Assembly (NCBI GenBank): GCA_020845635.1
Contig: JADLFI010000015.1
Span: forward strand, 1-64,000
Length of the DNA stretch: 64,000 bases
Direction of reading: 5' to 3'
Source: Bacteroidia bacterium
GTDB taxonomy: Bacteria > Bacteroidota > Bacteroidia > UBA4408
Position numbers and translations under genes: made by a program. This document shows positions 6,452 to 56,068 of the stretch, one piece after another. The first letter of the stretch is position 1. Every line of letters begins with the position of its first letter. A model generated the notes under the pieces. The model was given only the letters and a program-made list of their open reading frames with translations, had not been told where the DNA came from and ran no database searches.

Positions 6452-8362
6452 TTATTTTTTAATATCAATAACTGTAAATTCTGTTCTTCTGTTGGCCTGA
6501 TATTCTTCATCGGTACAAGGCACCCCATCTACACATTTATTTACCGGCTTGCTTTCACCATAACCCTTAGTTTTAATTCTATTGGCTTTAATACCTTTTG
6601 AAACTAGGAACTTCTTAGCGCTTTGTGCTCTACGGAAAGATAAATTCTGGTTGTACTCATCGGTTCCACGGCAGTCAGTATGAGAACTTAATTCAATAGT
6701 AATATTAGGATTATCTTTTAGTTTTTTAGCTAATTTAGATAAAGGCTCAATCGCATCAGGGCGAATTTCCCATTTGTCAAAATCGTAAAAAATAGGACGA
6801 ATTCCGGTTTCATCGGCTACATCTATCACTACAGGTTCGCCCTTAACTAAAGCCTCTAATGAGAAGTCTTTAACTATATCTCCTGAGTTGTTAACCGTTG
6901 AAATATCATCAGACTGGCTAAAAAAGCCATCTTTTGATACAGTTACTTCAAAATCGGTATTTGGAGCTAAAACATAGCTATAGCTACCATCAGGAGCAGA
7001 ATAAATAGTGTCGGTGGTATTACGAGCACGGTCAAATATTTCAATTTTAGCTCCGCCTAAAGGGCTACCATCAACTTTACTCAAAATTTTACCTCCTAAA
7101 TTTACTTGTGAGGCCTGCAATACAAATTCATATATTTTATCGGCACCACTGCGGTTACTGCTTAAATATCCGGTTTTGTTATCCGGATAAATCATAAAAC
7201 CAAAGTCGTCATTACTACTGTTGATAGGATAATTCATATTGGTAGGCTGCCCCCAAGCATTGCCTTCTTTTTGGGTTCTAAAAATATCTAAGCCTCCATA
7301 ATTGCTGTGTCCTGTTGATGAGAAGTATAAAACGCCTACACTGTCAACAAAAGGAAACATTTCATTTCCGGGGGTATTAACAGTTTCGCCTAAATTCTTA
7401 GGTTGTCCCCATTTCCCGTTTTCCCAATTGGTTAGGTATATATCAGTACCTCCAAAGCCACCGGGCATATCAGAAATAAAATACATTGTTTTCCCGTCAC
7501 TGGTTAAAGTAGGATGCCCCACTGAGTATTCCTGGCTGTTATAAGGAAACTCGGCTCCTTTTTGATACTCGCCATTTACAATAGTATCTTTATTGATTTT
7601 AAGACCTATAATTTTTTCCATCAATTCGGCCTTGCTTAATCCATCAGTATTACTCACAGTATAATAAACTTCGTTTCCGTTTCTGGAATATGTTGCCGAA
7701 GCAGTGTGTAGTTCATTTTTATTGATGTTTCCTTTGAGTTTTTCAGGATTTGAGTAGGCTCCGGTTTTATCTTTTTTGGTAAAAAACAGTTTGTAATAGG
7801 CGTTTCCGGTTTGAGGAGTTTTATTTTTGCCTTTTCCTTGTGTATTGGCGCTAAATACTAAACCATCTTTATATTGTACCGGCCCGTAAAACTCCGAAAC
7901 ATTACCAATTTTGGCATTAGTTACAACATACTTGGCTGAATCTTTTAAAAACACATTAGGGTTTTGACACGACTTGAGCATACTTTGAGCAAGTTTATCG
8001 TTGGGATTGGTTTTTAAATACTCCAGAAGCATAGCGGCAGCCTCACTATGTTTTTTATTGGCTATGAGCATTTGCGCATAATAAAACAAGTCAATAGGTT
8101 CAGAGCCCGGTTGATTTACAACTTTAGCATAAGCGTCAGCACCTTTCTTGGTATCGTTTAGTAAACGATAAGTGTTAGCCAGTTTTTTCTGCACTTCGGG
8201 CTTTTGCTTTTTAGCTAATGCTTTTTCATAATTCTTAGCCGCTTTAATATATTGAAGTTGTTCCATTTTTTTATCGCCCATGGATACATAAATTTTTGAG
8301 CATCCACTCATTATTAATACGGACAGCAGAAACAAATAAGAGTTAATATATATTTTCTTCAT
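6452..8362 (-). CDS. PorE-like OmpA-family lipoprotein (TPR, PD40, CRD, OmpA)
   Basis: The signal peptide has a lipobox ending LIMSGC at residue 21. TPR-like helices follow (about 30-135). Next is a beta-propeller with PD40/WD40-like blades ([17 protein letters not shown] is the clearest), then a carboxypeptidase-regulatory-like domain (about 425-505). A C-terminal OmpA peptidoglycan-binding domain shows [13 protein letters not shown] and [12 protein letters not shown]. This four-domain order is that of PorE, a T9SS envelope protein of Porphyromonas that binds peptidoglycan and associates with PorP. The PorP/SprF-like gene lies directly upstream, which supports the call. It probably links the outer-membrane T9SS parts to the cell wall. 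Confidence 0.88.
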
Positions 8363-9362: not shown

Positions 9363-12300
9363 TTATTTACGTCTTAACTCAACCCAACGGTTTTCATCAA
9401 TTTTGCCACACTCAGGAGAATCGGCAGTGAGCACCACAAAGTAGGTCCCTACAGGTAGTTCAACACCATTTTTCCCTGTTCCGTCCCAATCGTTTTTATA
9501 TGATCCGCCACTATTATATACTTCATTACCCCATCTGTTAAAGATAACAATATGGTTAGGTTCATAAGCCTCAATGCCCGGAATTACTAAATAGTCGTTT
9601 ACCCCATTACCATCAGGCGAGTAACCTCTTGGCATCTTGTCTAACACCGGAGGAGGCTCAACCAAGACGATAGAGTCCTGAATTGTACAGCCAAAGGCAT
9701 CGGTAACAACAACTTTGTATAAGTTACCTTCTTGTGCTGTTAGTCCGGTAATTACCTGAGTGTTTTGTCCGGTTGACCATTGGTAGGAATAAGGTTCCTG
9801 ACCATTTGATACAACCGCAGTAATTTGTCCGTCAGTTCCTTTAGGGCATTTTACGTTATAGTTTCCGTTCTCGTAGAATAACGGTTCTAATGCAATTTGC
9901 ATATTACTTAAACTTGGTCCGATATAGATAGTATCGGAAGTAGCCTTACAACCAAATTGATTTTGTGAAGTAACCCAGTATATACTTACTGAATTAATAG
10001 TAATAGTTTGTCCCGTTTGACCTGTACTCCAAACAAAGTTTGACCCCCCATCAGCCGAAAGTTCAACGGCACCTGAGCCATCGCAAGCCAACTGACCATT
10101 CACAAAAATAGAAGGAGCTGTGGCCGCAGGGGCAGGAAGTATTTGAACAGCCTGAGCAGTAGCAGTACAACCATTGGTGCCGGTAACTGTTACGGTGTAA
10201 ACACCGGCTGTATCAATAACAATTGATTGAGTAGTATCTAAATTAACGGTTTGGTTATTGATGGTTTGAAACCATTGGTAAGAAACATTTTGATTAACTG
10301 ACAATACTAGGGTATCACCTTCACACAATTGAGGAGAGTTACTTAAGGTAATTACCGCTGTTGGGTTAAACAATGTGGTAACTACTATAGTATCGCTTCC
10401 TAAAGAACAACCACTAGCATTAGTAACATTTAATATATATGTTCCTGCACTGTACACGGTTAAATTCTGTTGATTAGAACCATTGTTCCATAAGTTACCT
10501 GTAGGATTGTTAGAGCTTAACACCACAAAATCGCCAAGGCAGAAAGTAGTAGGGCCACTGGCAGTAATTTGAGCAGGATTTCCTGAGCCTGAAAGCACTT
10601 CAACGGTAATGGTATTTGAAACTGAAGTACAACCATTGGCGTCTGTAGTAACTACTGAATAGTCGCCCGATTGATTAACAACTATTGACTGCCCAACTTC
10701 GTTGGTTGGACTCCATAAGTATGATGTGCTTGCATTGGCAAATAAAGTAACTGAATCTCCCTGGCAGAAAGTAGTAGAACCTGAAGCAGTGATAGTTGCC
10801 TGAGCAGGAGCCGAATAAATGGTTATTTCAGCAGGTTGAGAAGTAAATGATCCGCAGGTGTTGGTAATAGTTACAGATACTGTAGTTGTGCCAACCGTTG
10901 AAATATCAATTGTTTGGGTAGTTTCGCCATTTGACCATAAATAGGTTGAACCCGGATTTCCGGCATCAAGTGTAACCGTACCACCACATTGTGTATAAGG
11001 GCCGCCTAAATTAACAGTAGGAGGCGTTTGAACTAATACATCAATAGGTAATGAAGTGGCAGAGCAGCCAATAGCATCAGTAACGGTAACGGTATATGAA
11101 CCAGTTGAATCAACAATAATTGAAGTACCTGTTTCTGAGGTGTTCCACAAGTATGATAAATTGCTGGTACAAGTATTACAAATCATTTGGATATTATCTA
11201 TACCAAAATCATTTCCACCCGTAGCACTATTCATACTATGCAGGGAAACAACTGCTGTAGGGTTAGCTCCGGCAGTCCATGTTTGAGTAAATAATACCCA
11301 GTTGTTTATTCCGGCAGGACAATTCATTACAGAACCCACATCAACTCCATCAACTCTTAATTGAATAACTCCCGGATTGTTATTGGCCACCATGGAGGCT
11401 AAAAATAATGAAATGTCATACGTTTGGTTAGGCACTACAGTAACTGTTTGTTGCCATACATACTGACCTGTATTTGACGAACCATTAACACATAAGAAGT
11501 TTCCGGCTCCGCCCTGCCCCACTCCGGTAAATCCGGGATGGTTAAGTGAAGCATTAGCAGTAACAAAGGTAGTTCCTTCAGGTTGAAGGTTTGATTGGTA
11601 GTTATATTCTGTAGCAAAATCACTAAATCCTGCATCAAAATTACCGTTTACAATAATATTTTGATTTTGAGATGCTCCGACTACTTCAAGTTGCACCGAA
11701 TTACCTGTACAGAATGTGGTAGGTCCGTTAGCCTGAATAACAGGGGTTGCAGGTAGCGGATTAATAGTTACATTAATTGTATTACTTACTTCGGTGTTAC
11801 ATTGATTACTTACAGTAACAAATACTACCCCGTCACTTGTAAGGGTTGCTATTTGTCCGTTAGGAATTTGATTATTTCCGCTCAAATCAGTCCATACATA
11901 AGTAGCACCGTTTTGCTGACCGGCATCAATGCTCACCGAACCACCACACTGAACAATATCAGTACCAATATTTACAGGAGTAATATTATTTAAAACAGTT
12001 ACGGTAAACCCTTGTGAAACCGCTGTACAACCATTCCCATTATCAACTGTAACGGTATATATCCCCGATTGATTTACTGAAATACTGGCAGTAGTTTGGT
12101 TACCCGGACTCCATGTAATATTTTGGGTTTCGCTTGAGGTAAGTATCAATACATCGTTCTGGCAAATAGTACTTGAACCATTAGCTGTTATAACAGGAGT
12201 TTGTGGGGCAGGTGTAATAGTTACTACAGCAGTGTCGCTACTTACAGTACCACAAGCATTACTTGCAGTTACATAATACGAACCGCTCTGTAACACGAGA

Positions 12301-15300
12301 ATAGTTTGAGTAGTTTCACCATTGCTCCATTGGAAGTTGGCACCCGTATTCCCTGCATCAAGCGTAACATTACCTCCACATTGTGTGTAAGGACCACCTA
12401 AAGCAATAGAGGTACTTAATGGGTTATCAACTACAACATTGACATCTGCTGATACAGCAGAGCAACCGCTAGTATCTGAGGTGCTTACAGAATAAACACC
12501 TGAAGTGTAAACAGTTATTGAGGCGGTAGTTTGACCATTTGACCATAAGTTATTGGCTGCATCTGAAGTTAAAACTACACTGTCGCCAACACAGAAGTTA
12601 AGCGGGCCGCTAGCGGTAATTATAGGCGTAGCAGGTAAAGGATTAATGGTTACATTGGCTGTTGAACTGGTAATGCTTCCACAAGAGTTTGTAACCTCTA
12701 CAAAGTAATTTCCACTGATTGAAACAGAAATGCTTTGAGTAAATTCACCATTGCTCCATAAGTAAGATGTTCCTGCAGAATGGGTTCCTGCATCTAAAGT
12801 AACGGTACCCCCACACTGAGTGTATGGGCCACCCAAGTCAATAGGTAATAACGGAGTATCAACATTTACTTGAATACTGTTAGAGGTAGCAGAACAACCA
12901 TTAGCATCAGTATAAACTACACTATAAGTACCACTTTGAGTAACTGTAATAGAAGGTGTAGTTTCGTTATTAGACCATTCAATATTGTTATTTATACTTG
13001 AAGTAAGTATTACAGATGCACCTTGACAGAAGGTTGTTGGGCCATTAGCTGTTATAACAGGGGCTACAGGAATAGTAAAAAGATTAACTTCCGCGATAGT
13101 ACTTGTAACAGTACCACAGGTATTAGTAATTTGTACCGAATAATTTCCTGAAGTGCTTACGGTAATAGTTTGGGTTGTTTCGCCATTGCTCCATAAATAA
13201 GTAGCATTATTTCCGGCATTAGCGGCATCTAATGTAATAGAACCACCACATTGTGTATAAGGACCTCCTAAATCAGTTGCATTAAGAGGGGTTGAAACAT
13301 TAACAGTAATTGAATTTGATGTTGAACTACATCCGTTGGTGGCTGTTGTAGTTACAAAATAAGTTCCGGACTGGTTAACAATAATACTTTGGGTTGTTTC
13401 GCCATTACTCCATAAGTAGTTTTGCTGTGCATTGCTGGTTAAAGTAACACTTCCGGTGGAACATATTGTAGTTGGGCCACCAGCAGTAATAACAGGCGAC
13501 TGCGGTATGGTTAATATATTAACAACTGCAGTATCTGATTGAACGGTACCACAAGTGTTAGCTACGCTCACATAATAAGAACCGCTTTGCTGCACGGTAA
13601 GTTGTTGGCTAGTTGCTCCATTGTTCCATAAGAAAACATTACCGACACCGGTATTACCGGCATTTAATGTTACTGAACCACCGCATTGAGAATATGGGCC
13701 ACCCAAGCTTGGAGCTACAGGAGCTTGTTGAACATTAACGGTAATAGGAGCTGATGAGCTAGTGCAATTATTACCATCATTAAAAGTAGCAAAGTAAATA
13801 CCACTTTGGGTAACAGTAATTGTTTGAGTAGTTTCACCTGTGTTCCAAGTAATTCCGTTAGCGATATTAACACTTAACGTGAGTGAACCACCCGCACAAA
13901 AAGTTGTTGAACCTAAAGGAGTAACCACCGGTGCAGGAGGGTTTGGATTAATAGTAACTTGAGCCGTAGTACTTTGTACACTACCACAGCTATTAGATAA
14001 TATTACATAATAATTTCCTGATTGATTAACCGTAATACTTGGCGAGGTAGCGCCATTGCTCCATAAATATGTTGTGCTGGCAGGATAGTTTCCTGGGTTT
14101 AACAAAAGAGTTCCGGCACATTGTACAAAAGGACCGCCTAAATTAGGGGCAGTAAGCAGTGTGTCGGATGATACGGTAATAGGAGCCGAAACAGCTGTAC
14201 AACCATTAGCATCGGTAAAAGTTACGGAGTATGTTCCGCTGTTGGAAACAACTATTGATGGAGTGGTAGCACCGTTTGACCAAGTGTTTCCGGTTGCTTG
14301 AGAAGAGTTAAGCACTACTGAATTTCCTTGACAGAACACTACAGGGCCGCCCGGAGTAATAACCGGAGCAGTAGGAATAGGGTTTATAGTAATATTAACG
14401 GTGTTGCTGGTTTCGCTTCCACAAGCATTTGAAACAACCACCGAATAAGCACCTGATGAGGCTACGGTAATCATTTGGGTGGTTTCACCGGTACTCCACA
14501 AATATTGAGCTCCGGGGTGACCTGCATTTAAAGTAACTGTACCGCCACATTGGGTTACATCATTACCAATATTAACTTGTGTTATAGGGTTTTCTATTGT
14601 TACAACTACAGTGTTAGAAACGGCAGTACAACCATTTGCATCGGTTATTAAAGTATAGTAGGAACCCGATGTTGTAACACTAATATCTTGAGAGGTTTCA
14701 CCATTAGGCGACCAAAGGTTTCCTGAAACATAGCTTGAACTTAGAGTTTGTACTGCGCCATTACATATTTGAACCGGGCCTGTAGGAGTAACTACAGGAG
14801 GCGCAGGAGTATTATTTATAGTAATACTAATAGGGTTACTTGTTACGCTACCACATGAATTGGTTACCGTAACTGAAAGAGTAGCTGTAGCAGAAACAGT
14901 AATTGTTTGAGTTGTTTCGCCATTACTCCATGAATAGGTTGCGCCCGGGTTTCCGGCATCTAAAGTTACCGAGCCGCCACATTGAACAATATCATTACCT
15001 AAATTTACTATCGGCATGGTTTCGATAGAAACATTAACAGGGGTAGAAACATTGGTGCAACCATTTAATCCGGTTACAGTTACTGAGTAAGAACCCGATT
15101 GAGTTGCTGTATAGGTTTGAGTTGTTGTTGTGTTATCATTCCATAAATAGGTAACATCAGTCATAGTCCCTGCATCTAAAACCACAGAACCTCCGCATTG
15201 AACAATAGGGCCGGCAGGACTGATAACAGGCTGTGCAGGTGCAGGAGACTCAATTACAGTAACAACATCAGAAACACTTATACAACCTGTTGAGTCAGTA

Positions 15301-18300
15301 TAAGTTACAAAATAAGAACCGGCACTTGATACTACAATAGACTGAGTTGTTTCGCCATTTGGTGACCATACATTGCCGGTAACTGCCGAAGAAACTAAAG
15401 TAACTGATGAGTTCTCACAAATTTGAATTGTTCCTGAAGGACTTACTGACACCTGATTAGGTACAAAATTAGTAACCACAAAAGGTGCAGACACTGAAGT
15501 ACAGCCACTATTATCGGTAATGGTTACTGTATATATTCCGGGACTTGTAACATTTATGGATTGGGTTGTTTCACCATTTGGTGACCACAAATAGGAGGCA
15601 CTGTTGTTGGCTGAAAGTACTGTAGAGCCACCAACACAGAATTGATGATCTCCGGTAATAACGGCATTGCCGGGATTATTAACTAAAACGTTAATAACAT
15701 TTGATTGAGCTGTACAACCGTTAGTATCTGTGGTAGTTACAAAATAGTTACCTGAAGAATATATTGTAATATCTGGAGCAACCTGTCCGTTGTTCCAGAT
15801 GATGCTGTCAACTATATCAGAAGCCAAAACTACCGACTCGCCTAAACAGAAAGTAGTAGGTCCCATAGCTGTAACTACAGGAGCTATAGGGTTGGGCAAC
15901 ACTGTTATTGAGATAGTATCTGATTGTGCAGTACAACCTGCACTATTGGTTACTGTTACGGTATAATTACCAGATGTATTTACCTGAATGGAGTTAGTAG
16001 TTTCTCCACCCGGGCTCCAGGTGTTATTGTTATTGCTGCTACTATATAAAGTAACACTTCCGCCTTGGCAGAATGTGGTTGCTCCAAAAGGGTTAATAGA
16101 TGGCTCGCTTGGATTGTTATTTACCACTACATTGATAGGTGCTGATGCTGCTGTACAATTATTAAAATCAGTTACAACAACATAATAACTTCCTGAGGTA
16201 TTAACAAAAATAGAGTCAACCGATGAAATATTTACAGGCATCCAATAAAAGTCCATTACGCTTGTTGAAGAAATGAACAACTCAACTGAATCGCCCTGAC
16301 AGAATGTTACAGCACCATTAGCAGTAATGACAGGGGCTGTGGGTAGAGGTAATTCAGTAACCACAACAGGTTGAGAAACAGCATTACAACCATTTGCATC
16401 AGTAAAAGTTACGGTATATGTCCCTGCCTGAGAAACGGTTATTGATTGAGTTGTTTCGTTGTTTGGAGACCAAATATTACCACTTGCATAGCTAGAAGTT
16501 AGGGTTACTGAGGAGCCGGGACATATATTAAGACTACCTGAAGCTGTAATAACAGGTGCCGGAGGGCTTGTAGGAACCATTGAAACTTCAAGCGGAGCAG
16601 ATGTACCCTCACAACCGTTAGCATCTGTTACGGTAACAGTAACAGTTTGAGCAGAGTCAACTGTAATTGTTTGGGTTGTTTCTCCTGTGCTCCAAACATT
16701 TCCTGTGGCAAAACTTGAGGTTAAATCAACACTGGAACCTTGACAAATAACGGTTGAACCACTGCTAGTAATTACCGGTATCGGTAAAGCATTTACAATA
16801 ATATCAATATCATTTGATTGGGCTGAACAACCATTATTATCGGTAACGATTACATTATAAACACCGGTACTATTAACGGTAATAGATGTTCCGCTTTGGC
16901 CACCGGGCTGCCAACTATATGATACATATTCGGGCAGAACTGTGGTGTTTAAGGTAACTGAATCGCCCTGGCAGAAAACTATTGGGCCGTCTGCACTAAT
17001 TACAGGGGCCACAGCCACCGGAAACATGGTCACATGAATTGGAACACGTACGGGACTTTCGCAATCAGGAGTGTAATCAACCACCCAAAAAGTAGTATCG
17101 CTGCTTACTGTTACGGTAAGCATATTAGAGCCTTCTAATAAAATATTGCCAGCGGCATCATACCATCTGTAATTTGTGGCTCCTTGAGCTTCTAAAGTAA
17201 TTGTTTCAGGCCCGCAAACGTGCTGATCCTCAACCACCGGACCACTGTATTCAACAGCGCATATATCATAGGCCGAACCATAGTTAGCCCTTACAAAGCC
17301 TCTTTGGTCATTAGCAGGAGCACCGTAGTTGGTTCCGGCATCAATAGCAGGACTACAAGCCAAAAGTAAAACGGTAGGAGTAGGTCCTCCATTTTTCTTC
17401 AACACATTACTAATTACTAAATTGCTTGGTAACCCAATAATATTTCCTGCAGTGTTTCCGGTAAAGTTCATCCCTAAAACATTGTCCACTAAATTATGAC
17501 CGGATACGGAGTACATATTTCCGAATACGGCACTAGCACCGTTAGTAGCGGTGTTTGCAGTAATAATAGTGTTATTAACCTCAATATTTCCAAGGTTAAC
17601 ATAAATAGCCCCGCCTACATCATCGGCAGTATCATAAGCAAAGGTACAATTTCTGATAGTAACAGTTCCGATAGTGGCTTTGTCAAGACCTCCACCAATA
17701 GCGGCACGGTTTCCGAAAACGGTACAGTTGGTCATTAATAATGAGCCAAAATTCATATAAACACCTCCACCTAGTCCGGCTAAATTAGTGTTGTAATCAA
17801 TTGTAGTATTGTTTATGGTTACATTAGCATTATTGGTACATATTCCTCCACCTAATCCGTTATTTACATAGTTTTTTGTAATTTGGCAATTATTAATGGT
17901 TAAGTCGGCATTTTCAACATAAATACCACCACCTGTAAGACTTGACCCTTTTGTTATTACTAAATTGTTAAGCTCTACTTTGATCGCCATAAGACCTACA
18001 GATTTAACCGAAATAACAGAAAAGTCGGGAGCAGTAAGGCTTCTTTCAATCGTTAAACTATTATTTGAAGGCCCATTTATTATAACATGGTTTCGGATTT
18101 CGGAAAGTGTCGAATCTAAAACTATGTTTCCCGACAGACTTGTCATATCAACAATATGAGGTGACAAAGCTGTAGCCGAAGCATCAATATTAAGTGCATT
18201 AATTACGGCTCGTAATGATCCGGGACCACTATCATTAGTGTTTGATACTGTATAGTTGGTTGCACTTGCCGGTAAAGAATAACCTATGAAGGCTATTACT

Positions 18301-18377
18301 GACCATGTTAGTAGTTTTATTGAACTACGACTAAACCATGATGAAAATCTTGTACGTTGTATGTCTCTTAAATTCAT
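9363..18377 (-). CDS. Giant multi-repeat cell-surface adhesin with type B T9SS sorting domain
   Basis: The 3004-residue secreted protein has a long-leader signal peptide (1-39, cleavage after ASA). A right-handed beta-helix of the pectate-lyase/choice-of-anchor type follows (about 45-375; repeated GGGIYV, NNCTV-type rungs). About 30 Ig-like repeats of 70-80 residues (375-2830) each carry two conserved Cys. The pattern is GPTTFCQG, then YLWSNGETTQSITV, then DANGC. In the middle, A-type repeats (TFCQG ... NGC) alternate with B-type repeats (GGPYTQCGG ... NTCG). A different domain is inserted near 2230-2405. A SprB-like repeat (about 2830-2913) precedes a gliding-motility-type C-terminal domain (2914-3004; SPDGNGVNDYL, NRWGNEVY). 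By family it is exported by T9SS and displayed for adhesion or gliding. Confidence 0.93.
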   Translation of the reverse strand: MNLRDIQRTRFSSWFSRSSIKLLTWSVIAFIGYSLPASATNYTVSNTNDSGPGSLRAVINALNIDASATALSPHIVDMTSLSGNIVLDSTLSEIRNHVIINGPSNNSLTIERSLTAPDFSVISVKSVGLMAIKVELNNLVITKGSSLTGGGIYVENADLTINNCQITKNYVNNGLGGGICTNNANVTINNTTIDYNTNLAGLGGGVYMNFGSLLMTNCTVFGNRAAIGGGLDKATIGTVTIRNCTFAYDTADDVGGAIYVNLGNIEVNNTIITANTATNGASAVFGNMYSVSGHNLVDNVLGMNFTGNTAGNIIGLPSNLVISNVLKKNGGPTPTVLLLACSPAIDAGTNYGAPANDQRGFVRANYGSAYDICAVEYSGPVVEDQHVCGPETITLEAQGATNYRWYDAAGNILLEGSNMLTVTVSSDTTFWVVDYTPDCESPVRVPIHVTMFPVAVAPVISADGPIVFCQGDSVTLNTTVLPEYVSYSWQPGGQSGTSITVNSTGVYNVIVTDNNGCSAQSNDIDIIVNALPIPVITSSGSTVICQGSSVDLTSSFATGNVWSTGETTQTITVDSAQTVTVTVTDANGCEGTSAPLEVSMVPTSPPAPVITASGSLNICPGSSVTLTSSYASGNIWSPNNETTQSITVSQAGTYTVTFTDANGCNAVSQPVVVTELPLPTAPVITANGAVTFCQGDSVELFISSTSVMDFYWMPVNISSVDSIFVNTSGSYYVVVTDFNNCTAASAPINVVVNNNPSEPSINPFGATTFCQGGSVTLYSSSNNNNTWSPGGETTNSIQVNTSGNYTVTVTNSAGCTAQSDTISITVLPNPIAPVVTAMGPTTFCLGESVVLASDIVDSIIWNNGQVAPDITIYSSGNYFVTTTDTNGCTAQSNVINVLVNNPGNAVITGDHQFCVGGSTVLSANNSASYLWSPNGETTQSINVTSPGIYTVTITDNSGCTSVSAPFVVTNFVPNQVSVSPSGTIQICENSSVTLVSSAVTGNVWSPNGETTQSIVVSSAGSYFVTYTDSTGCISVSDVVTVIESPAPAQPVISPAGPIVQCGGSVVLDAGTMTDVTYLWNDNTTTTQTYTATQSGSYSVTVTGLNGCTNVSTPVNVSIETMPIVNLGNDIVQCGGSVTLDAGNPGATYSWSNGETTQTITVSATATLSVTVTNSCGSVTSNPISITINNTPAPPVVTPTGPVQICNGAVQTLSSSYVSGNLWSPNGETSQDISVTTSGSYYTLITDANGCTAVSNTVVVTIENPITQVNIGNDVTQCGGTVTLNAGHPGAQYLWSTGETTQMITVASSGAYSVVVSNACGSETSNTVNITINPIPTAPVITPGGPVVFCQGNSVVLNSSQATGNTWSNGATTPSIVVSNSGTYSVTFTDANGCTAVSAPITVSSDTLLTAPNLGGPFVQCAGTLLLNPGNYPASTTYLWSNGATSPSITVNQSGNYYVILSNSCGSVQSTTAQVTINPNPPAPVVTPLGSTTFCAGGSLTLSVNIANGITWNTGETTQTITVTQSGIYFATFNDGNNCTSSSAPITVNVQQAPVAPSLGGPYSQCGGSVTLNAGNTGVGNVFLWNNGATSQQLTVQQSGSYYVSVANTCGTVQSDTAVVNILTIPQSPVITAGGPTTICSTGSVTLTSNAQQNYLWSNGETTQSIIVNQSGTYFVTTTATNGCSSTSNSITVNVSTPLNATDLGGPYTQCGGSITLDAANAGNNATYLWSNGETTQTITVSTSGNYSVQITNTCGTVTSTIAEVNLFTIPVAPVITANGPTTFCQGASVILTSSINNNIEWSNNETTPSITVTQSGTYSVVYTDANGCSATSNSIQVNVDTPLLPIDLGGPYTQCGGTVTLDAGTHSAGTSYLWSNGEFTQSISVSISGNYFVEVTNSCGSITSSTANVTINPLPATPIITASGPLNFCVGDSVVLTSDAANNLWSNGQTTASITVYTSGVYSVSTSDTSGCSAVSADVNVVVDNPLSTSIALGGPYTQCGGNVTLDAGNTGANFQWSNGETTQTILVLQSGSYYVTASNACGTVSSDTAVVTITPAPQTPVITANGSSTICQNDVLILTSSETQNITWSPGNQTTASISVNQSGIYTVTVDNGNGCTAVSQGFTVTVLNNITPVNIGTDIVQCGGSVSIDAGQQNGATYVWTDLSGNNQIPNGQIATLTSDGVVFVTVSNQCNTEVSNTINVTINPLPATPVIQANGPTTFCTGNSVQLEVVGASQNQNIIVNGNFDAGFSDFATEYNYQSNLQPEGTTFVTANASLNHPGFTGVGQGGAGNFLCVNGSSNTGQYVWQQTVTVVPNQTYDISLFLASMVANNNPGVIQLRVDGVDVGSVMNCPAGINNWVLFTQTWTAGANPTAVVSLHSMNSATGGNDFGIDNIQMICNTCTSNLSYLWNTSETGTSIIVDSTGSYTVTVTDAIGCSATSLPIDVLVQTPPTVNLGGPYTQCGGTVTLDAGNPGSTYLWSNGETTQTIDISTVGTTTVSVTITNTCGSFTSQPAEITIYSAPAQATITASGSTTFCQGDSVTLFANASTSYLWSPTNEVGQSIVVNQSGDYSVVTTDANGCTSVSNTITVEVLSGSGNPAQITASGPTTFCLGDFVVLSSNNPTGNLWNNGSNQQNLTVYSAGTYILNVTNASGCSLGSDTIVVTTLFNPTAVITLSNSPQLCEGDTLVLSVNQNVSYQWFQTINNQTVNLDTTQSIVIDTAGVYTVTVTGTNGCTATAQAVQILPAPAATAPSIFVNGQLACDGSGAVELSADGGSNFVWSTGQTGQTITINSVSIYWVTSQNQFGCKATSDTIYIGPSLSNMQIALEPLFYENGNYNVKCPKGTDGQITAVVSNGQEPYSYQWSTGQNTQVITGLTAQEGNLYKVVVTDAFGCTIQDSIVLVEPPPVLDKMPRGYSPDGNGVNDYLVIPGIEAYEPNHIVIFNRWGNEVYNSGGSYKNDWDGTGKNGVELPVGTYFVVLTADSPECGKIDENRWVELRRK

Positions 18378-48044: not shown

Positions 48045-48126
48045 GCGGATGTGGCGTAATTGGCAGCCGCGCCAGACTTAGGATCTGGTGCCGAGAGGCG
48101 TGGGGGTTCGAGTCCCTTCATCCGCA
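48045..48126 (+). tRNA. tRNA-Leu (anticodon UAG)
   Basis: The acceptor stem GCGGATG/CATCCGC is perfect. The anticodon arm CCAGA-CTTAGGA-TCTGG gives anticodon TAG. A long class II variable arm (TGCCGAGAGGCG) and a T-arm GGGGGTTCGAGTCCCTT follow. The discriminator base is A, and CCA is not encoded. Confidence 0.95.
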
Positions 48127-48131
48127 CAAAC

Positions 48132-48168: not shown

Positions 48169-48243
48169 TTTTCCATTTTTACCATCGCTATTTATCAATT
48201 TGTTTATTAGGTTTGTTGTTTAGATGCAAAAAATCACAAGGGA

Positions 48244-49767
48244 TTGAAAAATAATAATATCATTATCGGGATAGGTAACAAACAAGTTGAATCTATTGCT
48301 ACTGAATTGTTAAATAAACTAGAAAGTAACAATATATATGCTGAGATAGCTTATCAAAAAGGCCCTCGCAACATACATAACAACTTGTTGGCTAAATTAG
48401 GTAAGAAGGATATAAATTACATAGTGGCCTATAAAAATGAATTACCCGATAACCTGCCTGAAGATATTAATATTATTGCTGTTTGTGAGCGGCATGACCC
48501 ATCATGGAGTATGGTAATGACACCAGGCAAATATGAGAAAAATCAACCCTTAGCCATAAAAAAAAACACAAAAGTTGGAGTGTTATTACAATTGGTAAGC
48601 CAACAAGTTGCTGCATTACGTCCTGATATTAAAATAGAGCAACTTGACAATAATATGGATGAGACCTTAAAAAAATTGGAGGATAATAGAATTGATGGTG
48701 CAATTTTGCCAAGCCTTTGGCTTAATACTGAAATAGAAAATAAGTTCAATATCGAAAAATTTTCTCCACGTTTTCTTATTCCTGCCCCCGAGTATGCTTT
48801 TGTAGTAATATTAGGAAGAAAAGATGATACTTCAAATAATGTCTTTATAAATGAAATAAATCATCTTAAAACAACCCAAAGGTATACTCTGGAAAGTGAA
48901 TTAAAAGAACTTTCTATGGCAGAAAACTACTTATTAGGTGCCTATAGCGAACATAGTGTTGATGATGAAGAAAATGAAATTTTAAGTGTTTGGACGTGCT
49001 GCTCTAAACAAGAAAATCAATTGCCCGCATTTTTGTATGAGGAGAATGTGGAGGTCGAAAAATCAGCAGAATCAATCCTTTATAAATATAAAAATGTAAA
49101 TCCTTGCTCGGTATATATTAGTAAAAATATTTATAACAAAGGATTACTAAAAAACAGTTTGGAGGCTAACGGGTTTAAAATTGAGGGTATAGGCCTGAAT
49201 GAACAAGAAATGATTCCTATAAAACAATTACCCGAAACCGAATGGGTATTTTTCAGTAATAAATTATCGGTTGATTTTTTCTTTAAACAAACCCAACTAA
49301 AACATCAACAAAGAATAGGGGTTATCAGCAAATCGGTAGCCGATGCGGTGCGTAAATACAACGTAAGAGCCGAGTTTATTGGACAATCAGAAGACACCAA
49401 AATAACAGGGAGGCAATTTGCCGCTAAGGTGGGGAAAGCTTCTGTTCTTTTTCCTAAAGCAAAAGAGTTAATGGGAAGTATTCAGAAGCAATTTACCGTA
49501 CGCGACAAACTGTTTGAACTGAATGTTTATCAAACCATTGAAAATACCGTTAAATTAAAGGATTATGATGTATTAATATTTACCAACCCTGCGGCTGTTA
49601 GAACATTCTTTAAGAGCAATCAAATACAATCTACTCAAAAGGCTATTGCCCTTGGAGGGGCCACCAAGGCCGAACTGCAAAAGTATGGAGTAAAAAGAGC
49701 AGTGCTGTGTAACGGTTATGATGATATGGCTATTTTACAATGCATATATCACCTAAGTACTCCGTAA
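48244..49767 (+). CDS. Uroporphyrinogen-III synthase fused to a degenerate HemC-like domain
   Basis: Residues 1-260 align in order with hydroxymethylbilane synthase (IVAYKNELP in place of HSMKDVP, then VCERHDPSW). Its catalytic features are gone. The cofactor-binding Cys (GGCQVPIG in HemC) is replaced by ENYLLGAYSE. The paired Arg of SSLRR became LLQLV, and RGNVGTR became DNNMDET. Residues 285-507 form a HemD domain (WVFFSNKLSVDFFF, VLIFTNPAAVRTFF, ALGGATKAELQKYG), which closes uroporphyrinogen III in haem synthesis. Only TTG at 48244 is available as a start. No ATG occurs in frame between the stop at 48208 and that point. A functional HemC is presumably elsewhere. Confidence 0.8.
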   Translation: MKNNNIIIGIGNKQVESIATELLNKLESNNIYAEIAYQKGPRNIHNNLLAKLGKKDINYIVAYKNELPDNLPEDINIIAVCERHDPSWSMVMTPGKYEKNQPLAIKKNTKVGVLLQLVSQQVAALRPDIKIEQLDNNMDETLKKLEDNRIDGAILPSLWLNTEIENKFNIEKFSPRFLIPAPEYAFVVILGRKDDTSNNVFINEINHLKTTQRYTLESELKELSMAENYLLGAYSEHSVDDEENEILSVWTCCSKQENQLPAFLYEENVEVEKSAESILYKYKNVNPCSVYISKNIYNKGLLKNSLEANGFKIEGIGLNEQEMIPIKQLPETEWVFFSNKLSVDFFFKQTQLKHQQRIGVISKSVADAVRKYNVRAEFIGQSEDTKITGRQFAAKVGKASVLFPKAKELMGSIQKQFTVRDKLFELNVYQTIENTVKLKDYDVLIFTNPAAVRTFFKSNQIQSTQKAIALGGATKAELQKYGVKRAVLCNGYDDMAILQCIYHLSTP

Positions 49768-49775
49768 CTTATTTA

Positions 49776-50543
49776 TTATAAATCTTTCTTTTTAAACTTA
49801 CGTAAAGAAATAAGGTAAGGAATAACTATCCAAAGAAGCAATAAACCAAAAGAAATAATTAATCCCTGAGTAGTTCCAAAAAAATCTTTAAATATAGCAC
49901 CTGTATAGCCTAACATGGCCGAAACATCAAGGTTTAAAAGAATAAGTATTCGCGCCAAATCAATAGGACTCAGAGAGGTAATAACCACCATCATTTTTTC
50001 TATAGGGTACTCGCTTAACTGATAAAGCAAAAATAAAATAAGACCATCAAATAATAAAGCAAAATACAGCCATAATATAATGGATACACCTATCCCTTTG
50101 GCTTTATCTTTACTTAGAATAGAACTTAAAAATGCTAAAGCCACAAAAATTAGAGTAGTTAGGATCCCCGCTGCTATAAATAATAACGCATTGTTAAATT
50201 CAGCATAAATAAGCAAAGGTATGCCTGCGCCTAATATAAAAGACAATGACAAACTAAGGCCTAATCCAATAAACAAGCTATTCCAAATAACTTTTCGCTT
50301 AATGGGTAAACTAACTAATAGTTCAACAAACTCACTACTATTATAAATATATATGGTGGTAAACAGAATAGATACCAAAGGAACGGTAAGTAAAATAATA
50401 TTAAGCAAAGTAAGTAAACCTTTAGACTCATTATCTTCCAGGCTAAATGCGCTCCATGATAACATAGCTAAAAGAATAGTATAGAAAATAACTATTTTAT
50501 TCTTAAAAATATCGAGCATTACATATTTAAAAATTCTACCCAT
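49776..50543 (-). CDS. nosY: NosY-type ABC transporter permease
   Basis: The 255-residue inner-membrane protein has about six hydrophobic helices: 15-32, 37-65, 95-120, 125-150, 160-185 and 225-248. The motif ELLVSLPIKRKVIW after helix 2 is the usual ABC-2 coupling segment. With NosF it forms the transporter that, together with NosD, is needed for assembly of the NosZ copper site. It is the last gene of the nos cluster and overlaps nosF by 8 bp. It ends 8 bp from the convergent hemD-like gene. Confidence 0.9.
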   Translation of the reverse strand: MGRIFKYVMLDIFKNKIVIFYTILLAMLSWSAFSLEDNESKGLLTLLNIILLTVPLVSILFTTIYIYNSSEFVELLVSLPIKRKVIWNSLFIGLGLSLSLSFILGAGIPLLIYAEFNNALLFIAAGILTTLIFVALAFLSSILSKDKAKGIGVSIILWLYFALLFDGLILFLLYQLSEYPIEKMMVVITSLSPIDLARILILLNLDVSAMLGYTGAIFKDFFGTTQGLIISFGLLLLWIVIPYLISLRKFKKKDL

Positions 50544-51249
50544 TGCGCGACTGTTTTAAAAAGTGAAGAATTGCTTTTGAAGCCTTAGTTGTATTAGTTT
50601 CAGCATTGAGTTGTGATACTCCTTTGTGAAATAAAATATTTCCATCTTGCATAAAAATTATTTGACTCACCATATCGTCCAACTCACTTAAGAGATGAGA
50701 AGTTATAATAATCAATTTCCCCTTCTCCTTTTCACGAATAATCTTTTCTTTCAATAACTCGGAGGCTAACGGGTCAAGCCCTGCTGTTGGCTCATCTAAA
50801 ATCAATACATCCGGATTAAACAAAAAAGCCAATACGGCACTTACTTTTTGTGTTGTCCCTCCACTTAGTGTACCCATGTATTTATGCAACATCTTCTGAA
50901 TTTCAAAATAATCATACAAATCATTATCTAAGGCCGCATCTGAATTACGGATATTTTTTACCATATTAATAATTTGTCCTATCGTCATATTTTGTGGATA
51001 GCGCCCTATTTGGGGCATATAACCTATATGCTTACGGTATTCTATATTATTAAAAATAGATTGTTGCTTTACAATAATATCGCCTTGATCCGGCAAAACC
51101 ATACCTAGTATACTTTTTATAAGTGTTGTTTTACCGCAACCATTAGGACCTATGAGGGCTATACACTGTCCAAGTTCTAAATGCAAATCAATATTTTTTA
51201 GTACAGATAATTTCCCAAAACTTTTAGATATATTTTTTATTTCAATCAT
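50536..51249 (-). CDS. nosF: NosF copper-ABC ATPase
   Basis: The 237-residue ABC ATPase has Walker A GPNGCGKTT at residues 34-42, the Q-loop in YMPQIGRYP, signature LSGGTTQK near 122-129, and Walker B LILDEPTAGLDPLAS. It powers the NosDFY complex that matures nitrous oxide reductase. It overlaps nosD by 4 bp and nosY by 8 bp, indicating translational coupling. Confidence 0.92.
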   Translation of the reverse strand: MIEIKNISKSFGKLSVLKNIDLHLELGQCIALIGPNGCGKTTLIKSILGMVLPDQGDIIVKQQSIFNNIEYRKHIGYMPQIGRYPQNMTIGQIINMVKNIRNSDAALDNDLYDYFEIQKMLHKYMGTLSGGTTQKVSAVLAFLFNPDVLILDEPTAGLDPLASELLKEKIIREKEKGKLIIITSHLLSELDDMVSQIIFMQDGNILFHKGVSQLNAETNTTKASKAILHFLKQSRNG

Positions 51250-52481
51250 AAAGGTATTGCGTTCATCAAAGGTTTATTGTCAACAAAATTATCAGGGGTA
51301 ATACTTGGTAATATTTTTTCTGATTTATCAAGTAATGTTATCATAAAGCTGCGATATAAAAGCATTGCTGGCGGGTTTCCCTCAACAATTACCGCAAATA
51401 TACTAAGAGGATGATAAGGAACATCTCCAATTTTATCTTTATTCAAATCATAACCTTCATATTTATCCCAGTAGTTTTCACTAAAACTATTAAGGGTTAA
51501 GCTCCCGTTGGTGCTAATGTCAAAGGTGTTACCTAAGAAATTATTGCTACTGATATAATTATCCATACAATTTGCCTGCATCTTTAGCCCCCAACCGTTA
51601 TTTTTAAAGATATTTCTTTTAACTTCCATTCGGTTCGAGCCATCCATAAAAACAGCCGCTGTATTGTTGTACATTGTGTTTCCTTCCAAATGGCAATCTG
51701 AAATTTCTTTTAATAACAGACCATAAGCAGCATCACCCCAATTATCAGAAAATGTATTATTCATCATCACTACTTTTTTGGTAAACATTACTGATACTCC
51801 GGCACCATTATTCCTAAATATATTGGTAAAATAGGCATCGTTATTGGAAAACATAAAATGCAAGCCATAACGTAAATTATATTCTGAGATATTTCGCCAA
51901 ATTACCGAATTGGTAACAAATTCAAAATAAATACCATCTCTGTTTCTCTCCACTTTGTTTCCAATGATTTGTAAACTATCACTTTTCCAGCAATGTATGC
52001 CATTTCCGCTTTCTTGTTCTTTTTGCCCTTTAGCAATAATACGATTGTTTTTTACAAGCGTATTTTTACACTTTTGAAGATAAATCCCAAAAAAATTATT
52101 GAGCAGATAATTGCTCTCAATGATAATTTTATTCCCGTTTATTATTTTTATAGCAGCGGGGTCTTCTAGAATTGCAAAACTAGAATTCTGTAATTTAAAC
52201 CCTTTTATAAGTACTGAGTCTGAATTTACAGTGATAATCTGATATTTATTTCCACCATCTAACACAGGCATTTTTTCGCCTATTAAACTAAGCGGTTTAT
52301 CAATAATAATTTTTTGATTTTTGTAAAGTCCGGGTTGTACCAGTATGGTATCATATCTTGATGCCTGTTCAATGGCTTTATCAATAGAATTAAATTGTGC
52401 CTTTGAACCTACGGTAACAACTTTAGCAGTGGCAGAAAATGCAAAAACACTGATAAATATTATCAGAACAATATTTTTCAT
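51246..52481 (-). CDS. nosD: NosD periplasmic copper-site maturation protein
   Basis: The 411-residue protein has a signal peptide (1-19, ending SATA) and a right-handed beta-helix of CASH/NosD repeats (about 25-330), rich in Asn and with rungs such as NSVIWRNISEYNLRYGLH. An end segment GSLTLNSFSENYWDKYEGYDLNKDKIGDVPYHP is typical of NosD. NosD works with NosFY to build the CuZ cluster of NosZ in the periplasm. It starts 19 bp after the NosL-fusion gene and overlaps nosF. Confidence 0.93.
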   Translation of the reverse strand: MKNIVLIIFISVFAFSATAKVVTVGSKAQFNSIDKAIEQASRYDTILVQPGLYKNQKIIIDKPLSLIGEKMPVLDGGNKYQIITVNSDSVLIKGFKLQNSSFAILEDPAAIKIINGNKIIIESNYLLNNFFGIYLQKCKNTLVKNNRIIAKGQKEQESGNGIHCWKSDSLQIIGNKVERNRDGIYFEFVTNSVIWRNISEYNLRYGLHFMFSNNDAYFTNIFRNNGAGVSVMFTKKVVMMNNTFSDNWGDAAYGLLLKEISDCHLEGNTMYNNTAAVFMDGSNRMEVKRNIFKNNGWGLKMQANCMDNYISSNNFLGNTFDISTNGSLTLNSFSENYWDKYEGYDLNKDKIGDVPYHPLSIFAVIVEGNPPAMLLYRSFMITLLDKSEKILPSITPDNFVDNKPLMNAIPL

Positions 52482-52500
52482 AAAGAGGTAAACAATTTAC

Positions 52501-53511
52501 TTAGTTCAACTTATCCCACTGAACTACGCTAGCACTAATTTTGCTGGCGTAATCATTGGCCAATTGTTCGTTCTCAAATGCCGCCCAATTACCACCCATT
52601 GGGCTTCTTAAGTCTTCGTTTTGTACATAAAATGCTAAAGTGGCATCTATAAGTGAATTTTCGGCCAGATAATTATGAACGTAAAATGAGCTAATTTCGG
52701 TACTGCTTTTTTCGTTTGTATAATCAAGCATACATTTTAAATCATCAAACTTGTAAACCCTTCCCTTTTTAGTGATTAATTCAGCTCCAAAATGACCATC
52801 AGAGATGGCCATGGAGCAAAAATCGCACTTGTCAGAATTTAATTTAATGGGCGAAGGGCCACTACTACTGCAGGCACTAAATCCGAGCATACCAACGGCT
52901 ACAAGCATTGTTGCAGCAGTTTTCTTTTTCATATACTTATCTAAAAAACCTGATTCGGTAATTACGGCAACAAACATTAATAAGCCACCTACTACAAACA
53001 ACCATCCTCCAATATCAGGAACAGAGAATGCTCCAAAATTAAGTAATTGTTTAAATCCTATTAGAGGGGGTTGATAAGCCATTCCGGGAACTATAATGGC
53101 AGCATTAGGGTCAAGATTATGGCCATAATTATATTCCCATCTCCAGAAATCAACCATAGCAATTACTCCAAATGCTACAAAGGCCCAAAAAGCTATATAT
53201 AAGAATTTCTTTTTGCCCGAAAGTCCTGCTAATAAAATTATCAGAAAATAGCCTATAATTATGTATTTTAAGATAGAAAATTCAATAAAGTTTTCGGCAT
53301 GTAACGTTTGCATACCGATATAGTGATTCAAACCGTTAATAATATCTACATCACCTGCCAGCTTATCTGCATGAATTTTAAGTGCTAATCCTTCAGGGTA
53401 TTGAGGTGCATCTAATTCAATACGCCATATTGGAACAAATATGGAAGTCAATACGGCTATGGCGGCTACTATATATAGAATCTTTGATTGTTTTGAAATT
53501 GTGGGAGACAT
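52501..53511 (-). CDS. Fusion of a nos-cluster membrane protein to NosL
   Basis: Residues 1-190 form a polytopic membrane domain with about four helices (12-30, 80-97, 103-121, 165-185). It resembles the unnamed membrane protein of clade II nos clusters. At 194 comes a typical lipoprotein signal (MKKKTAATMLVAVGMLGFSAC, lipobox Cys214). The NosL domain follows, with the Cu(I)-binding CDFCSM (229-234), KGRVYKFDDLKCML and SPMGGNWAAF. NosL delivers copper to apo-NosZ. Normally these are two genes. Here there is one frame with no stop, although the Met at 52930-52932 could start NosL internally. An intrinsic terminator (53535-53567) precedes the gene. Confidence 0.88.
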   Translation of the reverse strand: MSPTISKQSKILYIVAAIAVLTSIFVPIWRIELDAPQYPEGLALKIHADKLAGDVDIINGLNHYIGMQTLHAENFIEFSILKYIIIGYFLIILLAGLSGKKKFLYIAFWAFVAFGVIAMVDFWRWEYNYGHNLDPNAAIIVPGMAYQPPLIGFKQLLNFGAFSVPDIGGWLFVVGGLLMFVAVITESGFLDKYMKKKTAATMLVAVGMLGFSACSSSGPSPIKLNSDKCDFCSMAISDGHFGAELITKKGRVYKFDDLKCMLDYTNEKSSTEISSFYVHNYLAENSLIDATLAFYVQNEDLRSPMGGNWAAFENEQLANDYASKISASVVQWDKLN

Positions 53512-53534
53512 TTTTTATAAATTATTGCAAAAAA

Positions 53535-53567
53535 AAGGAGCAGTTGGTTTTATTTAAACTGCTCCTT
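53535..53567 (-). terminator. Intrinsic terminator between nosZ and the NosL-fusion gene
   Basis: The 11-bp perfect stem AAGGAGCAGTT/AACTGCTCCTT has an 11-nt loop. On the minus strand it is followed by a run of T (complement of the A run at 53529-53536). It lies 25 bp after the nosZ stop and inside the cluster. Confidence 0.85.
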
Positions 53568-53591
53568 ATTTTTTACGGGTTACTATTCATA

Positions 53592-55565
53592 TTAGTTCTG
53601 TGATAAATCTTTGTTCAAACCAAAACGAAGCGGTACATTGCTATTTGCAGGAGAAACCCTCACATACCCTTGCATCTCTTGATGTAATGCACTACAGAAG
53701 TCTGTGCAATAGATTGGGAATATTCCTGTGCGATCTGGTATCCATTTTAAAGTGCAAGTTTCGCCCGGCATAATCAACAACTCTGCATTATTGGCACCTT
53801 TTACAGCAAATCCGTGCGGAACGTCCCAGTCTTGTTCTAGGTTAGTTACATGGAAATATACCTCATCTCCAAGTTTAATTCCTTCAATGTTGTCCGGAGC
53901 AAAGTGAGATCTGATAGAAGTCATATAAACATGTACCTTCTTACCATCTCTAACAACTCTAGCGTCATTTTCATTTTTTGTAACGTAAGGATGCTTGTTT
54001 TCATCAATTTTGTAAATCTTAAGTTGACCATTGTTTCTGATTAAGTCGGCCGGAGCAGCTTGTGCATAATGAGGTTCTCCAATAGTTGGGAAGTCTAAAA
54101 TCATCTGCATTTTTTCTCCGCTTATATCAAATAATTGGGCACTTTGAGTTAACTCCGGACCGGTTGGCAAATATCTGTCTTTAGTAATTTTGTTATAGGC
54201 TATTACGTATTTTCCATAAGGTTTTACAGTGTTTCCACCCGGTACACATAAGTGACCTACTGAATAGAAAGTTGGAACTCTGTCTAATACTTTCAAATCT
54301 TTAACATTCCACTTCACTACTTCTGATGAAACGAAGAAAGAAGTATAAGCATTTCCTTTATCATCAAATTCGGTATGAAGTGGCCCTAATCCCGGCTTTT
54401 GTACTTCACCGTACAATGCTGCGTCATACTTAATTACAGGAATCCCATCGTATTCAGTTTCAAAAGCTTTATCGTTAATCGCTTTCATTATTTTATCAAA
54501 ACTAAATACCGGTAATAAAGCTGCTAACTTTCCACTCCCAACAATATACTCACCTGAAGGGTCAACATCGCAGCCATGTGGCGACTTAGGACAAGGAATA
54601 AAGTAGCAAATATCTTTTAACTCTGCAGCATCTAAAACTGTAACTTCTGTTTCGATAGTTGAAGTAGAGGTATGAGTTGCATCATCATATACGTTATGCG
54701 CATATCTAACAGCTTGTTTTTTACCTTTTCCGGCTTTAAGATACTCTTCGGCCTTTTTCCAGTTAACTGCCATAATAAAATCTTTATCTCTTTGTGAAGC
54801 ATTAACTTCTAACAAAGTATTGGCTTGCTCTGTATTATAGGTAGAGAAAAAGAACCAACCGTGAGATTTTGCCTTACCGGCACGCGCCAAGTCAAAGTTA
54901 ACACCAGGGGTTCTAAGCTGAAAAGCAAGCTTCATATTTCCTGAATTGGGGTCAATGCTAACAAAGCTAATATGACCTTTAAAGTTTTGCTTATAAGTAC
55001 TGATTGGTACATCTCCGTTATCAGCATCGCCCGGAACACTAAAACGTGTACCTGCAACAATATACTCAGAGTTTTCGGTACCGAATGGCGAACTATGATT
55101 ACCGGCACTGTTAGGTAACTCAATAATTTCGGCTGTGCGGAAAGTTTTTAAATCAATTCTTGCCAAACGTGGTGTGTTGTTAGCGTTAGCAAAAGCCCAT
55201 TTTCCGTTATACTCCCCCTTAGTTTGAGAAAGCTCAATGTGATGTAAATCATCCCAAGGAACAAAACCATGTGATGTGTTTAACATAGGTTTGGTTTCTT
55301 CGCTGTATCCCCATCCTTTTTCAGGATCAACAGAGAATACCGGAATATAGCGAAACATACGACCGCTAGGCAAACCATAAACGCTCATTTGGCCACTAAA
55401 TCCTCCGGAAACAAAGTTATAAAACTCGTCATACTGACCCGGAGCAACATAGGCTTTAGCAGCAGAATTTCCAGAAACAACATTGCTGGTATTTTTAGGT
55501 TTACACGCAAATAAAGTAACCGCTAAACCTAAGGTAGTTAATAATGTGATTTTTGATGTTTTCAT
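53592..55565 (-). CDS. nosZ: Nitrous oxide reductase, lipoprotein (clade II, Sec type)
   Basis: Reduces N2O to N2 in the periplasm. The signal is Sec-type with a lipobox ending TLFAC (Cys21), not a Tat motif, as in clade II enzymes of Bacteroidota. The seven-bladed propeller holds CuZ ligands. DDLHHIELS (about residues 103-111) contains the first His pair, and further His occur in SPHGCD, GPLHTEF and SVGHLC. The C-terminal cupredoxin has CuA ligands in CTDFCSALHQEMQ (C-x3-C-x3-H-x2-M; about 618-630). The length of 657 is normal. It is preceded by a cytochrome c gene and followed by the accessory genes. Confidence 0.97.
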   Translation of the reverse strand: MKTSKITLLTTLGLAVTLFACKPKNTSNVVSGNSAAKAYVAPGQYDEFYNFVSGGFSGQMSVYGLPSGRMFRYIPVFSVDPEKGWGYSEETKPMLNTSHGFVPWDDLHHIELSQTKGEYNGKWAFANANNTPRLARIDLKTFRTAEIIELPNSAGNHSSPFGTENSEYIVAGTRFSVPGDADNGDVPISTYKQNFKGHISFVSIDPNSGNMKLAFQLRTPGVNFDLARAGKAKSHGWFFFSTYNTEQANTLLEVNASQRDKDFIMAVNWKKAEEYLKAGKGKKQAVRYAHNVYDDATHTSTSTIETEVTVLDAAELKDICYFIPCPKSPHGCDVDPSGEYIVGSGKLAALLPVFSFDKIMKAINDKAFETEYDGIPVIKYDAALYGEVQKPGLGPLHTEFDDKGNAYTSFFVSSEVVKWNVKDLKVLDRVPTFYSVGHLCVPGGNTVKPYGKYVIAYNKITKDRYLPTGPELTQSAQLFDISGEKMQMILDFPTIGEPHYAQAAPADLIRNNGQLKIYKIDENKHPYVTKNENDARVVRDGKKVHVYMTSIRSHFAPDNIEGIKLGDEVYFHVTNLEQDWDVPHGFAVKGANNAELLIMPGETCTLKWIPDRTGIFPIYCTDFCSALHQEMQGYVRVSPANSNVPLRFGLNKDLSQN

Positions 55566-55585
55566 GTTTTCTAAGATGTTTATAT

Positions 55586-56068
55586 TTATTTGGAGTCATT
55601 TTTTCTCATAAACTCAACGATTTCTCGAGCCTCTTGGTCGGCCAAATTTTGATTTGGCATACGTACCAAGCAAAGTTCAAGTTGTGCCTGTACTTCAGGG
55701 TCTTTGTCAATCATTGGGTCTGGGTTAGTTATAAAATTCATTAACCAATGTGGTGTTCTTCTTTTGGTAACATCTTTCCATCCCGGTCCTACCAATCTTT
55801 CGTCAGATGTTTTGTGGCATGATAAGCATTTTGTACCTGCAATGGCTTCGCCTTTGCTGGCCATAGCTTCATCAATGGTTTCTCCTACCTGAACATTTGA
55901 TTCATCAAATTTGCCTTCACCTCTTTTAGGATCATAAGATTCGGTGTTCGCTTGATGCTCAGGGTTGGCAGCCGAATCCTTGCTTGATTCATGATTGCCA
56001 CTGTTTCCACAACTGCTTATTATGAAAGCTGCAATTGTTGTGAGTGCTATTAAAGATAATTTTTTCAT
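55586..56068 (-). CDS. Cytochrome c lipoprotein of the nos cluster
   Basis: The 160-residue protein has a lipoprotein signal (ending ISSC at residue 20), an Asn/Ser/Glu-rich linker, and one class I cytochrome c domain. Haem attaches at CLSCH (about 82-86), and RMPNQN (about 137) provides the axial Met. It is the likely electron donor or conduit to NosZ, being the first gene of the cluster and 20 bp upstream of nosZ. Its promoter carries an FNR-like box. Confidence 0.92.
   Translation of the reverse strand: MKKLSLIALTTIAAFIISSCGNSGNHESSKDSAANPEHQANTESYDPKRGEGKFDESNVQVGETIDEAMASKGEAIAGTKCLSCHKTSDERLVGPGWKDVTKRRTPHWLMNFITNPDPMIDKDPEVQAQLELCLVRMPNQNLADQEAREIVEFMRKNDSK

Follow-up and report, generated by a model that had tools for sequence, protein, structure and literature searches.

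Pseudoenzymes are catalytically dead relatives of enzymes that are kept for binding, scaffolding or regulation. In the literature that we searched, we found no description of such a protein in the HemC family. The intact family is represented by HemC of Escherichia coli (hydroxymethylbilane synthase, HMBS, also called porphobilinogen deaminase; PDB 1pda/1ypn), and in Bacteroidia the enzyme occurs fused to HemD (uroporphyrinogen-III synthase, UROS). HemC–HemD fusions as such are already known; according to the passage of PMC8698207 that cites it, the fusion of Leptospira interrogans has been reported to be bifunctional, with both activities. Bacteroidetes also possess a stand-alone HemD-like protein, which is a single domain, highly conserved, distributed across the class and encoded beside rnpA. 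Likened by description, it probably belongs with PG0202 of Porphyromonas gingivalis, which a 2007 list of proteins specific to Bacteroidetes includes under the annotation HemD (PMC1887533).

Here we analyse a gene within a stretch of 64,000 nucleotides (the window) from the genome of a Bacteroidia lineage that has not been cultured. Its product shares domain order, length, start position and predicted fold with the HemC–HemD fusions of Bacteroidia, but its HemC active site is erased and its lid loop largely deleted, and the gene lies outside a hemA/hemB operon in a genome that appears to have no pathway left. Compared to E. coli HemC, the predicted fold is shared (Z ∼25 over 271 residues), whereas the cofactor Cys and the substrate-binding arginines are absent and the catalytic Asp has become Glu. 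Like the stand-alone HemD-like protein, which is a separate gene in the host genome, it represents a HemD fold in a genome where HemB and an intact HemC were not found, and, like pseudoenzymes in general, it seems to keep its fold and to have lost catalysis while its frame is apparently under selection. On balance, we favour the reading that the product is a HemCD pseudoenzyme particular to this lineage, still folded and retained because it serves some non-catalytic purpose in an organism that has lost heme biosynthesis. If true, this would to our knowledge be the first HemC-family pseudoenzyme to be described.

Gene structure and the HemC active site

The degenerate HemC–HemD fusion gene (window positions 48244–49767, forward strand; defined by its open reading frame, Pfam matches and orthology) encodes 507 amino acids. 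An earlier note on this DNA had described it as HemD fused to HemC with a TTG start, and both points were borne out: TTG is the earliest start codon in the frame and falls where the orthologues begin with GTG or ATG, and the product matches PF01379 (Porphobil_deam; E 1.2e-11, residues 47–197, 45 bits versus a cut-off of 22.1) followed by PF02602 (HEM4; E 1.6e-15, residues 319–496, 57.3 bits versus a cut-off of 27.5), i.e. HemC and then HemD. Its TIGR00212 score was 52.6 bits, below the cut-off of 164. The product is most closely related to the HemCD fusions found in its own genus (36–39% identity, E ∼1e-106). No stop codon interrupts the 507 codons, so the gene is not a pseudogene in the sense of a disrupted frame. 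By eye, TAGGTTTG (48208–48215), 28 bases 5′ of the TTG, matches the Bacteroidetes −7 promoter consensus TAnnTTTG; inspection of the upstream region by eye found no clear −33 element.

The active site was compared in an alignment of the product with seven orthologues of the family, the N-terminus being corrected by the predicted structure. A gap over helix 1 in the N-terminal alignment was rejected because the predicted secondary structure and the alignment with the G003 orthologue place the deletion in the lid loop. Apart from E. coli Asp84, Arg149 and Cys242, the roles of the checked positions are well established in the family. In the HemC half (residues 1–285; 48244–49098, +), we checked 18 positions that serve the cofactor, the substrate or catalysis; 17 of them were altered or deleted, and N153 was the only one kept (numbering of the G001 orthologue, also used below). 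R11 is deleted. The lid loop is ∼15 residues shorter between residues 40 and 41 of the product (48361–48366, +; from the pairwise alignment and the secondary-structure register of two models), which removes D44 and K53. K57 is replaced by P, S79 by Y, K81 by N and the catalytic D82 (E. coli Asp84) by Glu66 (48439–48441, +). SSARR has become LLQLV, residues 113–119 (VLLQLVS; 48580–48600, +) replacing the anion-binding TSSARRK loop; further downstream R151 is D, R157 is T, R178 is deleted and Q202 is Y. The dipyrromethane-cofactor residue Cys246 (E. coli Cys242) is replaced by Asn228 (48925–48927, +), where the local alignment is uncertain by 1–2 residues and there is no Cys nearby, and GGCQLPLG is lost. 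Thus all six checked Arg are gone, and the residues that hold the carboxylates of the polypyrrole chain (E. coli R11, K83, R131, R132, R149, R155 and R176) are replaced or deleted in 7/7 cases. The roles of Asp84, Arg149 and Cys242 in HMBS follow the review PMC8561815.

Judged from its sequence, the HemC half is almost certainly catalytically dead. The earlier note had said so on the loss of the cofactor Cys, the SSLRR arginines and RGNVGTR, and in the structure-corrected alignment N153 is the one checked residue that is retained.

Predicted fold and unequal constraint on the two halves

The AlphaFold2 model of the product reached a pLDDT of 89.4 and a pTM of 0.81; as the input alignment contained intact homologues, these scores support folding and are no proof for this particular sequence. 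Both the three-domain HMBS fold and the two-domain HemD fold were found in the model. With VIA-align, residues 3–287 matched E. coli HMBS (1ypn; Z 25.2, 271 residues, rmsd 3.5) and residues 288–506 matched uroporphyrinogen-III synthase (1jr2_A; Z 14.4). The HemC fold is thus probably retained according to the model; the motif AYKNELP, which the earlier note had named as a landmark of this fold, is instead a degenerate version of the catalytic HSHKDLP motif. In addition, positions that are always hydrophobic in the orthologues were still hydrophobic in 77% of cases in the HemC half and 95% in the HemD half, compared to a background of 41–43% (p < 1/5000). This test uses only the alignment and is independent of the structure-model score.

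The two halves have fared differently. The HemD half (residues 287–505; 49102–49758, +) keeps 26 of the 37 residues that are invariant in the seven family orthologues, with its FTSPSN signature now FTNPAA, whereas the HemC half keeps 25/93, no more than its general identity. In the trees, the HemD half grouped with the genus-mates and one family-mate (support 99) on a branch of 0.80, and the HemC half sat on a branch of 4.68, so long that the gene cannot be placed by this half. Residues and branch lengths show that constraint is tighter on HemD than on HemC. Such a contrast could mean that only the HemD half matters, its fold being kept for a non-heme role and the HemC half being a passive tethered domain under a weak folding constraint. 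There is a precedent for this in the stand-alone HemD-fold protein, which is present in 79/80 genomes with a HemD match. Among the 22 relatives that lack both HemC and HemB, 21 have it, and in such pathway-less genomes it is unlikely to act as a uroporphyrinogen-III synthase. However, the core of the HemC half has stayed hydrophobic too, its ∼285 codons form an open frame, and the usual stand-alone protein is already encoded in the host genome, with 82–87% identity to that of G001 and, in the genus, a position beside rnpA. We consider this the leading alternative, albeit one with the odds clearly against it. The stand-alone gene was seen at 6832–7923 of L189 (host contig 35), at 7062–8258 of L192 and at 8202–8945 of L195.

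Substitution rates and selection

The other HemCD proteins of the genus are 65–74% identical among themselves, and the RNase G encoded in the window is 82–84% identical to the RNase G of the genus. The terminal branch leading to the window HemCD measured 1.40 substitutions per site, compared to 0.19 for three concatenated reference genes, indicating that the gene evolved much faster than the host genome. One alternative is a decaying relic: the pathway would have been lost recently, the gene would be drifting and its frame would be open by chance. All tested metabolic partners are indeed missing and the degenerate form is confined to one lineage. However, when we simulated neutral evolution to the observed divergence, the HemC half accumulated a mean of 13 stops and 0/300 runs were stop-free, and the HemD half accumulated a mean of 4.6 stops with 6/300 runs stop-free, so that neutral decay would give ∼18 stops in total where the real gene has 0. 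The GC content by codon position also followed the pattern of a coding gene.

Synonymous sites were saturated and free branch lengths in the codon model ran to the bound, which weakens codon tests; we therefore used profiles at fixed branch length. With the branch fixed at the ∼5 neutral substitutions per codon supported by RNase G, the HemC half had an omega of 0.45 and the HemD half one of 0.21, and omega = 1 was rejected for both (2ΔlnL of 47 and 232, respectively). At ∼2.5 neutral substitutions per codon, which corresponds to loss of the pathway late in the branch, the HemC half alone fitted an omega near 1. This fit at a short post-loss time agrees with decay, and means that the HemC half may have undergone late relaxation. 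Against decay of the whole gene, the unequal rates of the HemC and HemD halves are unlike uniform neutrality, and the hydrophobic core is still present. We think it likely that the gene is maintained by selection, and rate the relic as an unlikely explanation.

Heme biosynthesis in the host genome and its relatives

We searched the host genome (completeness 99.99%) family by family for HemA, HemB, HemC, HemE, ferrochelatase and SUMT. The window gene was the sole above-threshold HemC match, so a complete hemC elsewhere in the genome, for which the earlier note had suggested looking, was not found. HemA, HemB, HemE and the uroporphyrinogen-III methyltransferase SUMT/CobA gave no match in the host genome, while controls responded in the same searches. 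A second weak PF01379 match on contig 11 (E 0.08, in a frame of 138 codons) was judged to be due to chance. A weak ferrochelatase match on contig 12 was rejected as a second degenerate heme enzyme, being a CbiX-type protein within an HmuY/TonB uptake locus. This locus (8164–14250 of L054, host contig 12) encodes two HmuY proteins, the CbiX-type protein, which may be a lipoprotein, a PepSY membrane protein and a TonB-dependent receptor.

In relatives, the pathway is in place. HemA, HemCD, HemB and HemE were intact in 7/7 sampled genus- and family-mates, with hemA directly 5′ of hemCD in 7/7 family relatives and hemB directly 3′ in 6/7. In the window, the place that hemA takes in the hemA-hemCD-hemB operon of relatives is occupied by a tRNA-Leu gene (48045–48127, +; ARAGORN), which lies directly upstream of hemCD. 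In Bacteroidia more widely, heme biosynthesis has been lost repeatedly, and HemC normally goes too: the 22/80 genomes without HemC were the same as those without HemB, and the host alone combined a HemC match with no HemB. Its best HemC match (2.9e-12) was the weakest among 395 Bacteroidia genomes, the next weakest being 5.9e-32, and we found no second species with a degenerate HemCD among these 395. A single-protein genome scan gave no match, and no relatives turned up among viruses either. The host has very probably lost heme biosynthesis. As the pathway genes were not found in the host and are intact in 7/7 relatives, the window gene is what remained of the genus HemCD, as its orthologue, after this loss. 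In the simplest history, the gene would have descended vertically, hemA and hemB would have been lost or rearranged, and rapid change concentrated in HemC would have followed. The gene order HU/TPR/RNase G was considered as a clue to how the locus formed and was uninformative, because in every relative it breaks off immediately beyond HU. Elsewhere in the window, an open reading frame of 3004 amino acids (9363–18377, −) shows local similarity to large open reading frames in relatives.

The same data bear on two further explanations. The assembly might miss the real heme operon, the window gene being a fast-evolving extra copy. In G002 and G003, hemE lies ∼12–34 kb from hemCD, so that a single gap in the assembly could conceal several genes. 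However, the genome is virtually complete, a comparable second, weak HemC match is absent from all relatives and the HemD half clusters with the HemCDs of the genus, all of which make a missing operon highly improbable. The earlier note had proposed a relay, in which the HemC domain takes hydroxymethylbilane from a separate HemC and hands it to HemD; the predicted retention of the HemC fold speaks for it, but with the positively charged side chains that grip the polypyrrole lost, and with no separate HemC, no HemB to make the substrate, no HemA and no HemE or SUMT to use uroporphyrinogen III found in the host genome, the idea is refuted for practical purposes.

Possible function

We return to the folded pseudoenzyme. 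Its non-catalytic role might consist of binding or of regulation, the latter having been the second suggestion of the earlier note, and the mechanism that we prefer is ligand binding by the HemD cleft, perhaps also by the HemC cleft, where the cationic loop is now hydrophobic. Since the carboxylate-binding Arg are lost, a polypyrrole chain would be disfavoured as the ligand and a more hydrophobic one would suit better. The HmuY/TonB/PepSY/CbiX locus of the host genome is of heme-uptake type, and one protein encoded in the window is a cytochrome c, which requires heme, so that the cell should need heme. In such a heme scavenger, the product might bind heme that has been imported, or some other tetrapyrrole, might act as a buffer for it, or might signal its presence to a partner. 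That the role concerns tetrapyrroles in particular is a tentative suggestion, and the fuller version, a heme- or tetrapyrrole-binding and signalling protein of a heme auxotroph with an HMBS cleft turned from cationic to hydrophobic, is more speculative still. We identified no heme-binding motif in the product, and a degenerate form seen in one species means that a new function would have no independent conservation behind it.

If the pseudoenzyme reading is true, an enzyme of the pathway has lost its chemistry while keeping its frame and apparently its fold, which would reveal a dead metabolic enzyme with another job and would offer a route to asking whether HemCDs have roles beyond catalysis. 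The cytochrome c gene lies in a nos cluster (49776–56068, −) that is convergent with hemCD and ends 9 bases away from it; nosL, nosZ and the cytochrome c were assigned by Pfam, and nosY, nosF and nosD by context.
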